A stretch of 64,000 bases of DNA from Haloterrigena alkaliphila (GTDB taxonomy: Archaea > Halobacteriota > Halobacteria > Halobacteriales > Natrialbaceae), in the NCBI RefSeq assembly GCF_017352155.2, contig NZ_CP071462.1:1302001-1366000 (forward strand), in the 5' to 3' direction. Under the pieces are notes generated by a model. It was given only the letters and a program-made list of their open reading frames with translations. It did not search any database and was not told the DNA's origin. Of this stretch, positions 53,523 through 55,814 are shown one piece after another (positions within the stretch are counted from its first letter, which is position 1; each line of letters opens with the position of its first letter). Made by a program: the position numbers and the translations under genes.

Positions 53523-54203
53523 TCAGGGAGCGACGCCGACCGTGAGCAACGTGCCGAACTCGCGGTAGCGTTCGACCATCGCCTCGCGAGTCTCCCAGTC
53601 GTCCGTCGGGAACTCGGACTCGGCGGGGATCGAAATCTCGCGGTCGGGGATGGAGTCCTGTTCGGCGACGTGGAGGCCGGCGTCGCGGAAGGCCGCGCGG
53701 TACTGCTGGCGATCCCAGCGGGTCATCTCGATCGAGATGAACTCCTTCCACTCGTGGGAGTGGACGTTTTCCTCGTAGTAGTTGACGGCGCAGTGGAAGG
53801 TGCCGCCGGGTCGGAGGATCCGGGCGATCTCCTCGAGCGTGCGGTGGGGATCGCTGGCGTAGTAGAACGCCTCCATCGAAAACACGTGATCGATCGAGTC
53901 GTCCGCGAAGGGAAGGGCGTCGAAGTCGCCGACGAGGAACCCGGCCTGCGGATCGTTCGTGTACCCCGCGGCGTTGCGGGCCATCTCCGGCGACCCGTCG
54001 AGGCCGTAGACGCGCCCGGCATCCTGGGTATCGCGAAGCGCGCGACCGGCGTACCCGCTGCCACAGCCGAGGTCGAGGACGACGTCACCGGGTTCGACCG
54101 GCATCCGCGCGAGCGCGTGCTTCGCGGTGTGCCAGTGGCGTTCCTCCATCCCCCTGTCCCGGCCGCTCGCGGCCCACTCGTCGAACTCCTCGCGAACGCT
54201 CAT
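53523..54203 (-). CDS. SAM-dependent methyltransferase (Methyltransf_11 type)
   Basis: A 226-residue class I methyltransferase. SAM motif I VVLDLGCGSGYAGRALRD near residue 42, post-I acidic residue in VYGLDGSPEMARNA near 65, motif II-like DALPFADDSIDHVFSMEAFYY near 95-115 and motif III HRTLEEIARILRPGG near 125. The C-terminal half likely defines the substrate, which I cannot name. The closeness of two DtxR-like operators (54311-54360) upstream on this side hints at iron control. Confidence 0.88.
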   Translation of the reverse strand: MSVREEFDEWAASGRDRGMEERHWHTAKHALARMPVEPGDVVLDLGCGSGYAGRALRDTQDAGRVYGLDGSPEMARNAAGYTNDPQAGFLVGDFDALPFADDSIDHVFSMEAFYYASDPHRTLEEIARILRPGGTFHCAVNYYEENVHSHEWKEFISIEMTRWDRQQYRAAFRDAGLHVAEQDSIPDREISIPAESEFPTDDWETREAMVERYREFGTLLTVGVAP

Positions 54204-54310
54204 ACTCGAGGCGTCACGCCGGGCGAGGAAAACGCGTTCGGTCGACGCGCCGACGGATCGACGCGCCGGCGGGTGACCGCAGTGACGCGTCGCTCGAGGC
54301 CGACAGACTT

Positions 54311-54326
54311 TTTAGGTTGGCCTAAA
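54311..54326. promoter_or_regulatory. DtxR/SirR-type iron-regulator operator, site 1
   Basis: TTTAGGTTGGCCTAAA is a perfect inverted repeat (TTTAGG, 4-bp spacer, CCTAAA), matching the half-site pattern of DtxR-family iron or manganese regulators. It lies between the methyltransferase gene (start 54203, leftward) and the gene at 54505 (rightward). Confidence 0.55.
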
Positions 54327-54344
54327 TAGAGAGGAGTGGAGAGG

Positions 54345-54360
54345 TTTAGGTCGGCCGAAA
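54345..54360. promoter_or_regulatory. DtxR/SirR-type operator, site 2
   Basis: TTTAGGTCGGCCGAAA repeats site 1 with one mismatch in the right half (CCGAAA). It starts 34 bp after site 1 in the same arrangement, about three turns of the helix. Confidence 0.5.
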
Positions 54361-54504
54361 CTCCGTGGGCATCGGATATCGGTCGGGCGAACTGCTCCTG
54401 TGGATCCTCTTTCCGTGCGAATCAGACGTCGCTGGACCCGACAGCGAACAGTAACTACTGACATCCGCACTATTAAGTCAGTGCCGAAAGTTGTTCACTC
54501 CAAT

Positions 54505-55083
54505 ATGGACTATTCACTTGAGATAGATGGCACGCCGGAGACGGTACCGGGCGGCACCGGGGTGCTCCTTCTCCACCCGAGCACCGGGGAAACGGACCGT
54601 ATCGACACCGACTTTCTCAAAGTCGACACGGATCACTTCCTCGTCGTCTCCACGCGAACCACGGCCCGCGAAGTCAGACAGAAACTCGAGTACTACGACG
54701 TCGACGAGGACCGCGCCGAAATTCTGGACACGCTGAGCATCGAACACGGCTACTCGCGGCGCAAGAGCGACACCGTCCACTACGTCGCCGCCCCCGACGA
54801 CGTCGACGGGATCGTCGACCACATCGACGGCTTCCTCGACGCCCACGACGGCAAACTCCGGCTCAGTTTCGACTCCGTCACCGAACTCGCCTACTACGCC
54901 GGCGACGACCAGGCCCTCGAGGCGGTCGAACGCATCCTCGAGTTGCTCGATGAGTACGACGCCATCGGTCTCTTCCACGTCTCGGAAGAACCCCACGACG
55001 AGGCGCTCGTCGACGAGTTCCGCGAGCTGTTCGACGGGGTCATCGACCTCGACGAGGACGGCAGCATCGACGCCGAGTTCTGA
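54505..55083 (+). CDS. Conserved haloarchaeal hypothetical protein
   Basis: A 192-residue acidic protein. It has the look of an alpha/beta domain related to RecA/KaiC-like haloarchaeal sensors (TGVLLLHPSTGETDRIDTDFLKVDTDHFLVVSTRTTAREVRQKLEYYDVDEDRAEILDTLSIE ... FDSVTELAYYAGDDQALEAVERILELL), but no Walker motif is intact. The fold assignment is a guess. ATG 54505 has a TATTAAGT promoter about 34 bp upstream. It would lie downstream of the two iron-regulator boxes. Confidence 0.72.
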   Translation: MDYSLEIDGTPETVPGGTGVLLLHPSTGETDRIDTDFLKVDTDHFLVVSTRTTAREVRQKLEYYDVDEDRAEILDTLSIEHGYSRRKSDTVHYVAAPDDVDGIVDHIDGFLDAHDGKLRLSFDSVTELAYYAGDDQALEAVERILELLDEYDAIGLFHVSEEPHDEALVDEFRELFDGVIDLDEDGSIDAEF

Positions 55084-55127
55084 GAGTCGCAGTCGGAATC
55101 GCTTTTGGGCGGTGTATTGATGGCTCG

Positions 55128-55385
55128 TGCCGAGCGTCTCGTCGGAAATCGACGACGGAGCGAACCCCATCGTTTCCGGTGCAGCCGTCGACATCGCGAA
55201 CGTCGTGTCGAGTGAGGCGTGCTCGTACTCGTGGGCGAACTCGAGGTTGCGGACGAACTCGAGGAACCGATCGACCTCGTCGGTGCCCACGTGTGCACAA
55301 CAGACCCGCAGCTCGGGGTCGGACTCGAGCAGTTCCTCGAAGACGTCTCCGCCCACGTACGGACTCCCCTCGTACCCGCTATCCC
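55128..55385 (-). pseudogene. Amidohydrolase remnant
   Basis: The minus strand reads part of a TIM-barrel amidohydrolase (Amidohydro_2 type): GSPYVGGDVFEELLESDPELRVCCAHVGTDEVDRFLEFV, then LDTTFAMSTAAPETMGFAPSSISDETL. The first third of the barrel (metal HxH motif) and the last part are missing, and the block from residue ~64 to ~75 is altered. It sits in a 347 bp gap between two intact genes and has no start in context. It is a decayed gene fragment. Confidence 0.65.
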
Positions 55386-55430
55386 GCGGAATTATCACTG
55401 CCGAGGTGGAGAGAGCCGGTAGACCACCGC

Positions 55431-55814
55431 ATGGCACGGCCAGTAGAAGGTGAGACTCACACGTTCGAGCGGACGTTCACGACCGACGACGTCGAGCGGT
55501 TCGCGGACCTCTCCGGCGACAGACAGGACATCCACACCGAACCTGACGAGGAGGGCCGCCTGATGGTCCACGGACTGCTGACCGCGACCCTGCCGACGAA
55601 GATCGGCGGCGACCTCGAGGTGCTCGCCCAGCGGATGGACCTGGAGTTCGTCCGTCCGGTTTACACCGGCGAGCGGATCACCTGTAGGTGGACGTTCGAG
55701 TCCGTCGCGGAGCGCGACGATCGCTACGAGATCGTCGTCGACGTGAACTGCGAGAACGGGGACGGGAAAACGGTGCTGACCGGCAGTACCGAGGGACTCA
55801 TCTGGAGGGAATGA
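55431..55814 (+). CDS. MaoC-type hotdog dehydratase family protein
   Basis: A 127-residue hotdog-fold protein. The MaoC signature is near residues 20-40 (FTTDDVERFADLSGDRQDIHTEP, with D/H near the active-site loop) and LMVHGLLTATLPTKIGG; the second half has FVRPVYTGERITCRWTFESV. Such proteins hydrate enoyl-CoA thioesters; specificity is unknown. ATG 55431 was set from the start of the fold. No lipid genes are adjacent. Confidence 0.85.
   Translation: MARPVEGETHTFERTFTTDDVERFADLSGDRQDIHTEPDEEGRLMVHGLLTATLPTKIGGDLEVLAQRMDLEFVRPVYTGERITCRWTFESVAERDDRYEIVVDVNCENGDGKTVLTGSTEGLIWRE

Follow-up and report, generated by a model that had tools for sequence, protein, structure and literature searches.

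Between a class I methyltransferase gene and a DUF7090 gene, in the 64-kb stretch of DNA analysed here (the window), stand two short palindromes of a kind associated with iron-dependent repressors. The question raised by this locus is which gene such a pair would serve. A sequence-only reading of the window had reported both 16-mers, taken them for DtxR-like operators and placed them in the divergent promoter region of the methyltransferase; the two sites are indeed found where it had put them, 34 bp apart from start to start. The reading favoured here, which we hold to be rather probable, is that the pair switches an unannotated small-RNA gene in response to iron, and that the iron-repressed, RyhB-like iron-sparing product of this gene would block the leaderless mRNA of a ferredoxin. 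Features of the locus and of related places in the genome are collected in Table 1. Throughout, G000 denotes the genome studied (4.27 Mb, haloarchaeal) and other G numbers denote the relatives with which it was compared.

Table 1. Features of the operator locus and related sites. Positions are those of the window unless a contig or kilobase position of the G000 genome is given.
Feature	Position	Strand	Basis or remark
BRE/TATA element (CCGACAGACTTTTTAGG) of the putative small-RNA promoter; overlaps operator 1	54300-54316	+	CCGACAG-like block conserved
Operator 1, DtxR/Idr-like palindrome TTTAGGTTGGCCTAAA	54311-54326	no strand	exact TTAGG-N4-CCTAA
Operator 2, TTTAGGTCGGCCGAAA	54345-54360	no strand	one mismatch to TTAGG-N4-CCTAA
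Putative small RNA of about 75 nt with predicted ends (roughly +/-5 nt each)	54340-54413	+	covariance model R1
Helix P1, 54351-54358 (UCGGCCGA) with 54379-54386 (UCGGUCGG)	54351-54386	+	covariation; single-sequence fold
Hairpin P2 (seed), UCCG, loop UGGGCAU, CGGA	54362-54376	+	RNAalifold; 94.4% of cells paired
11-nt stretch CCGUGGGCAUC, perfectly complementary to ferredoxin nt -1 to +10	54363-54373	+	sequence match
P3 hairpin with a short T-run, presumably the 3' end	54389-54412	+	weak in G000, clearer in some relatives
Class I SAM methyltransferase gene, left neighbour	53523-54203	-	Pfam Methyltransf_11, E 6.2e-24
Methyltransferase core promoter (CGAACGCGTTTTCC on the - strand)	54227-54240	-	similar element in family genomes
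DUF7090 gene (KaiC-like family, PF23365), right neighbour	54505-55083	+	E 2e-106
DUF7090 core promoter (CCGCACTATTAAGTC) with its own TATA	54464-54479	+	read from the sequence and from relatives
Exact palindrome	565 kb		before a HitA-like binding protein, then an ABC permease
Exact palindrome	1643 kb		before a Peripla_BP_2 protein
Exact palindrome	2333 kb		before a Peripla_BP_2 protein; second site 35 bp away
Exact palindrome	2730 kb		before an ABC ATPase with a TOBE domain
2Fe-2S ferredoxin gene, outside the window, starting GTGATGCCCACGGTAGAA	G000:C1:1454901-1455287	-	genome search

Operator motif and placement

The TTAGG-N4-CCTAA palindrome is one that we take to be the haloarchaeal Idr (iron) box. 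Within the 64-kb window the 16-mer pattern, at three mismatches or fewer, has six matches against 0.88 expected, a number reached in 0 of 100 shuffles; four of the six are the two near-palindromes themselves, each counted on both strands. Genome-wide the motif is not enriched: at one mismatch or fewer, TTAGGNNNNCCTAA occurs at 24 places, whereas its reversed control is found at 51 on each strand. Counting of the motif was rejected as uninformative on this ground and, the raw genome counts being unenriched, it is placement and conservation that matter, not number.

Exact palindromes occur at 12 places in the genome. Four of these (565069, 1643264, 2333008 and 2730228) lie 2-41 bp upstream of ORFs with ABC-transporter or substrate-binding Pfam matches, and the transporters concerned appear from their protein families to be of the iron type. 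The genome also encodes four proteins with a DtxR C-terminal domain (PF02742, above cut-off). Because the same motif stands at iron-type transporter promoters of a genome that encodes four DtxR-domain proteins, the identification of both sites as DtxR/Idr-like operators is supported by their placement rather than by their number, and to this extent the sequence-only reading is borne out.

Further groups of such sites were seen elsewhere in the genome. A second tandem pair, 35 bp apart at G000:C1:2332973-2333021, lies directly before a Peripla_BP_2 binding protein, and the FAD-dependent oxidoreductase-like gene that follows this protein may point to ferric-siderophore use. Five DtxR-like sites fall within 12 kb in G000:C1:561000-576000 (at 1612, 2806, 4069, 10979 and 13209 of that stretch), where they surround a HitAB-like transporter and apparent sugar-nucleotide, glycan and membrane-protein genes, so named from their first residues only; the region is perhaps an iron-regulated surface-glycan cluster. 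At G000:C1:3070148-3070187, two sites 26 bp apart are located between a DpsA/ferritin-like gene (PF00210) and an ORF that is UspA-like by its residues.

A candidate small RNA at the operators

On the + strand the locus displays a constant order of blocks: a BRE/TATA-like element over operator 1, a spacer, operator 2, and a CCG/CGG hairpin with the loop TGGGCAT (P2). Located 3' of P2 are a segment complementary to operator 2 in its 3' half, another hairpin (P3) and, in some genomes, a T-run, a clearer example of P3 with its T-run being GAACAGC-ATCC-GCTGTTC-CCTTTTT in G028. The CCGACAG-like block beside operator 1 is conserved in most of the carriers read. The promoter element was read against the haloarchaeal BRE/TATA consensus (as given in the available text of PMC4983044), and the spacing from TATA to the predicted start site was taken from the hitA, fdx and methyltransferase promoters. 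By this placement the promoter of the RNA itself would contain the iron-repressor operators: the predicted TATA is overlapped by operator 1, and the predicted start lies just 5' of operator 2, whose 3' half is also one strand of RNA helix P1. Since the BRE/TATA-like block overlaps operator 1 and operator 2 follows just after the predicted start, the pair fits the promoter, and could serve as the switch, of an unannotated + strand RNA of about 75 nt. Rfam covariance models give no match at E<=1 in window positions 54000-54700, either to RyhB or to any other family.

Support for the RNA comes from covariation. Alignment A1 comprises 23 sequences aligned by MAFFT out of 30 with sites, omitting G002, G004 and G005, which are near-copies of G001, as well as G010, G018, G026 and G030, which have no recognisable hairpin. 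Counted on A1, the structure has 19 pairs, 78.5% of cells paired and 13 pairs with double changes, and its covariation is 0.258 versus 0.151 in shuffled alignments (sd 0.014, 0/500) and at most 0.123 with slid partners, the slide control being partly biased, as the structure was drawn from members of the set. In P2, three of the four pairs have changes on both sides, and the outer pair occurs as UA, CG, UG and AU. RNAalifold, left to find the structure of the same 23 sequences by itself, returns P2 and one small hairpin within operator 2 and nothing else, and its covariation term is close to nil (-0.15); P1 and P3 were not found in this way and were thus written in from single-sequence folds, P1 being present also in the single-sequence fold of the G000 RNA. 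Single-sequence folding energy was rejected as evidence, as that of the G000 RNA is no better than shuffles (z +0.89) and is therefore uninformative; five relatives give moderate values (-0.98 to -2.15).

Covariance model R1 was built from 21 sequences (alignment A3, which is A1 minus G015 and G032). When 58 held-out hits are fitted to R1, covariation is 0.315 versus 0.189 (0/500), with the number of pairs showing double changes less clear (36/500 shuffles). Unfitted, the held-out signal is weaker than in A1: alignment A5, the best-scoring 29 of the 58 held-out hits aligned by MAFFT without structure, has 75.5% of cells paired over 17 pairs (the outermost P2 pair, whose column the alignment splits, is omitted) and a covariation of 0.149 versus 0.117 (sd 0.010, 2/500), and one of its five measures, further pair types, is unremarkable (76/500 shuffles). 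The + strand GTG ORF yields no conserved peptide among the 14 genomes translated. Covariation together with the lack of a conserved + strand peptide qualifies the locus as a putative structured non-coding RNA gene, of which RNAalifold alone backs only P2 and the one small hairpin.

Distribution and loop conservation

The distribution of the RNA supports the same interpretation. R1 matches 93 of 125 family genomes at E<=0.01 and has no match in the other 32. A search of 392 genomes of the order returns four matches outside the family, with E of 1e-3 to 6e-3, which is about chance level; second weak matches in G024, G107 and G126 were rejected, also as chance level. The match in G000 itself (G000:C1:1356339-1356419, window 54339-54419; 79 bits, E 4.6e-19) is to a sequence in the R1 training set. 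A pattern of operator 2 plus seed matches 22 named contigs, all Natrialbaceae by label or by a genus name that we take to belong there, and the locus is also carried by the Haloterrigena salina JCM 13891 record. Natronorubrum texcoconense and Halopiger djelfimassiliensis are further cultivated carriers. In G130, two equally scoring copies of the small RNA are present (C1:26938-27017 and C1:3963232-3963311).

The loop is the near-invariant part of the RNA, the 9-mer GTGGGCATC being exact in 80 of the 93 carriers. Operator 2 is unrecognisable (score below 9 of 12) in 42 of the 93, yet 35 of these 42 keep the 9-mer; conservation of the loop is thus not due to its being part of an operator. One genus (g9) accounts for 26 of the 42, and in many of its members the stem is lengthened to CGAAATCCG/CGGATTTCG. 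Conversely, the family genomes G018 and G030 keep the operators with no hairpin seen.

Complementarity to a ferredoxin gene start

The reverse complement of the loop region, CCGATGCCCACGG, resembles a gene start coding MPT. Haloarchaeal 2Fe-2S ferredoxin presumably begins MPTVEY, and from this N-terminus ferredoxin was named as the target before the genome search found its gene to start GATGCCCACGG. Exact copies of GATGCCCACGG occur at five places in the genome: the RNA locus, the ferredoxin gene, the inside of an apparent ADH-like ORF at 506 kb, and places at 1992 and 2531 kb that have no plausible gene start. Ferredoxin is, in our judgement, the only gene start among the five. The shorter GATGCCCAC occurs at 24 places, two of which are plausible gene starts when judged by eye, namely ferredoxin, with 11 nt, and a gene that matches over 9 nt and is presumed from its N-terminus to be pheT-like. 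Other places were rejected as targets: 506060 is inside the apparent alcohol-dehydrogenase-like ORF, another belongs to the RNA locus, and the remainder are short, upstream-open or wrong-frame readings. Ferredoxin is the only iron-protein mRNA target found.

Among 2000 shuffles of the G000 RNA the best complementarity is 10 nt, and none reaches 11. The loop and the ferredoxin start share at least 11 contiguous Watson-Crick pairs in 78 of 92 carriers and 13 or 14 pairs in 10 of 92, a count that omits G073 (no ferredoxin found) and in which the target string is identical except in G012, G072 and G074. In G012, ferredoxin ACG has become ACA, and the RNA, with UGUGGGCAUCA, keeps the pairing and part of the stem, which is also altered. 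The duplex energy of the 14-nt seed is best for ferredoxin, at -23.8 versus -20.9 for the best of 98 other gene starts called by a crude ORF filter.

The ferredoxin TATA is about 32 bp upstream of the ATG, a distance from which a leaderless or nearly leaderless mRNA is expected. Leaderless transcripts make up 72% of the protein-coding ones in Hfx. volcanii (PMC4983044), and Fdx protein of this species falls about 2-fold under iron starvation (PMC11349517). Haloferax is outside the range in which the RNA was found; the drop in Fdx is physiologically fitting nonetheless.

From the computed features, i.e. the operators, the same motif at iron-type transporters, the covarying structure, the near-invariant loop and the ferredoxin complementarity, we infer transcription of the RNA, its strand and ends, the identity of the repressor, the response to iron and the repression of ferredoxin, in the following way. 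With iron present, a DtxR/Idr-type repressor bound to operator 1, which overlaps the TATA, and to operator 2, where the transcript begins, would keep the RNA off. With iron scarce, the repressor would leave and the structured RNA of about 75 nt would be made from the + strand. P2 would then expose UGGGCAU as its loop; the mRNA of the main 2Fe-2S ferredoxin has the complement, AUGCCCA, as its first seven coding bases, and pairing could extend over 11-14 nt. With the start codon of a leaderless or nearly leaderless message held in a duplex, ribosome entry would be blocked, less ferredoxin would be made, and iron would be spared. That this holds family-wide, as an archaeal RyhB counterpart in which a DtxR/Idr-repressed RNA carries a loop serving as 'anti-start-codon' for leaderless ferredoxin mRNA, we consider somewhat better than an even bet.

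The small RNA could also be real and iron-controlled with ferredoxin not its target, or not the main one, the loop binding other mRNAs or a protein and the match being a coincidence. This we regard as unlikely, though worth serious consideration. Family genomes that lack the RNA have a ferredoxin start of the same invariance, so the conservation of that start proves nothing about the RNA. Pairing is weakened to fewer than 11 nt in 14 of the 92 carriers: changes in the loop break it in G019, G025, G134, G122, G117, G118, G093 and G095, a seed change in G071, G072 and G074 leaves 8 pairs, and another change leaves 8 nt in G091. In G072 and G074 the ferredoxin start has changed too, but pairing is not regained. 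Nor is ferredoxin picked out by the duplex energy of the whole RNA, where its -28.3 is surpassed among the 98 other gene starts (best -36.2), and the pheT-like gene start shares 9 of the bases. Set against a coincidence are the position of ferredoxin as sole gene start among the five exact 11-nt places (by our own reading), the 11 or more pairs kept in the 78 genomes, the matched change in G012, and the fact that ferredoxin is an abundant Fe-S protein.

A separate observation concerns the ferredoxin gene itself. Its first coding bases (GATGCCCACGGTAGAATACCT) are nearly identical in nucleotides family-wide, including a GTA codon, which is rare in such GC-rich genomes. Genomes lacking the small RNA show this conservation as well, so a different constraint acts on these bases.

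Flanking genes and their promoters

Direct regulation of the methyltransferase (or of DUF7090) by the operators, with no separate RNA, would suit a pair that lies between two divergent genes with no iron gene adjacent in G000. It was examined in a synteny set of 33 family genomes (G000 included) that have both genes on one contig, by comparing the sequence between the two, and we judge it improbable. Both genes have core promoters of their own at leaderless distance, so neither needs the operator pair, and the client of the tandem operators is probably neither of them. The BRE/TATA-like element of the methyltransferase lies 24-37 bp upstream of its ATG; the pattern for it matches 29 of the 33 family genomes, including all five without operators, and is also found in 5 of 8 other-family genomes (cut at the start codon). 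The tandem pair, 31-34 bp apart, is kept on the methyltransferase side in 21 of the 33, while five have operator 1 only, five have no operators, and G010 and G026 are rearranged. The distance from operator 1 to the methyltransferase start is variable (60-223 bp). Upstream of the methyltransferase, operator sites are absent in 20 of 20 other-family relatives examined and in the family genomes G008 and G035. Direct regulation of a neighbour would, in addition, leave the covarying RNA 3' of operator 2 unexplained. Both neighbours were rejected as clients, each having its own core promoter, and the earlier assignment of the operators to a divergent methyltransferase promoter is not upheld.

The gap between the two flanking genes is less than 0.7 kb in 19 of the 33 genomes and about 3-5 kb in 14. 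All 14 long-gap genomes carry a HitA-like binding protein and an FbpB-like permease in this gap, and the earlier suggestion that the neighbourhood has lost genes is supported in spirit, genes having been gained or lost. The 'amidohydrolase remnant' on which that suggestion drew could not be confirmed, the - strand ORF at 54514-55437 having no Pfam or NCBIfam match when searched whole.

The presence of hitAB downstream on the same strand in these 14 genomes, and the terminator-like appearance of P3 with its T-run in some relatives, would be expected if the structured RNA were a hitAB 5' leader or attenuator (a metal riboswitch) that has outlasted these genes in the genomes without them. Yet hitA has its own TATA and a further operator directly before its ATG (13 of 14; in G010 the site is not in the stretch read), and in hitAB genomes the tandem pair remains on the methyltransferase side. 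The P2 hairpin, seen in 10 of 14 genomes with hitAB, persists in 14 of 19 without it here, including all six same-genus genomes examined. A hitAB leader was rejected on the ground that the RNA is retained at loci lacking hitAB, and we give it very little credence.

Least credible is an explanation of the block without an RNA, either as a DNA element, with TCCG-N7-CGGA as a third inverted-repeat protein site, or as a very short ORF (beginning ATGCCCACGG on the - strand or GTGGGCATC on the +): P2 is an inverted repeat in DNA too, the - strand block begins with ATG and RNAalifold alone supports little beyond P2, but the outer arms of P2 covary through UA, CG, AU and UG, unlike a fixed protein site, P1 and P3 show double changes too, and a small ORF was rejected on either strand, as the + strand GTG peptides (9 to 50 residues in 14 genomes) diverge after the first few residues and the - strand frames (MPTEFRPT in G000) shift and, by eye, stop at different points.

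Relation to known systems

Iron control in bacteria characteristically involves iron-sparing RNAs. Bacterial sRNAs of the RyhB/PrrF/IsrR type are made under iron scarcity from promoters governed by an iron-dependent repressor and pair at the starts of iron-protein mRNAs. The candidate RNA is like them in its proposed control by an iron repressor and in its predicted pairing at an iron-protein mRNA start, by which iron proteins would be lowered. It differs in being archaeal, with an operator of DtxR/Idr type and no Rfam match, whereas they are bacterial and use Fur; moreover its start-codon loop appears suited to leaderless mRNA. IsaR1, an RNA of cyanobacteria under iron stress, reportedly represses ferredoxin along with further Fe-S proteins. 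Set beside the candidate by description only, it is alike in targeting ferredoxin, as is proposed for the candidate, and differs in being bacterial and Fur-controlled and in having several targets.

IsrR is described as a bacterial iron-sparing sRNA (PMC9410917). Among haloarchaeal RNAs, those of Haloferax volcanii described in connection with phosphate (sRNA132; PMC6560208) and zinc (s479; PMC8155600) offer a comparison. Both are likewise tied to nutrient or metal uptake, and both differ from the candidate in nutrients and targets. Neither is known to have a DtxR operator or a start-codon loop.

The regulators Idr1 and Idr2 of Halobacterium, and Idr, SirR and TroR of Haloferax, are described as DtxR-family regulators of iron homeostasis (PMC11349517). 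Regulators of this group would be expected to read operators of the present kind, and their known clients are protein genes. We know of no earlier RNA client in an Idr-type regulon. Among the literature matches listed, as far as titles and the beginnings of abstracts go, no iron-responsive archaeal sRNA was found. In the available text of a 2018 review of archaeal regulatory RNAs the sole 'iron' passage concerns Pyrobaculum antisense RNAs, one of which is opposite a ferric uptake regulator, and a text search of a 2025 Haloferax review gives no occurrence of the word.

Should the proposed reading be true, this would be the first iron-sparing RNA in Archaea, as far as the literature search reaches, and the same regulatory logic would have an independent origin here, with a different family of repressors and a different geometry of pairing. 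Operator 2 would serve twice, as a DNA site and as a strand of the main helix of the RNA. Repression of leaderless messages by trans-acting RNAs is, to our knowledge, poorly known, and a loop complementary to the start codon would be a simple way of silencing such messages. The action of the AUGCCCA-complementary loop on leaderless ferredoxin mRNA would be directly testable in cultivated species.
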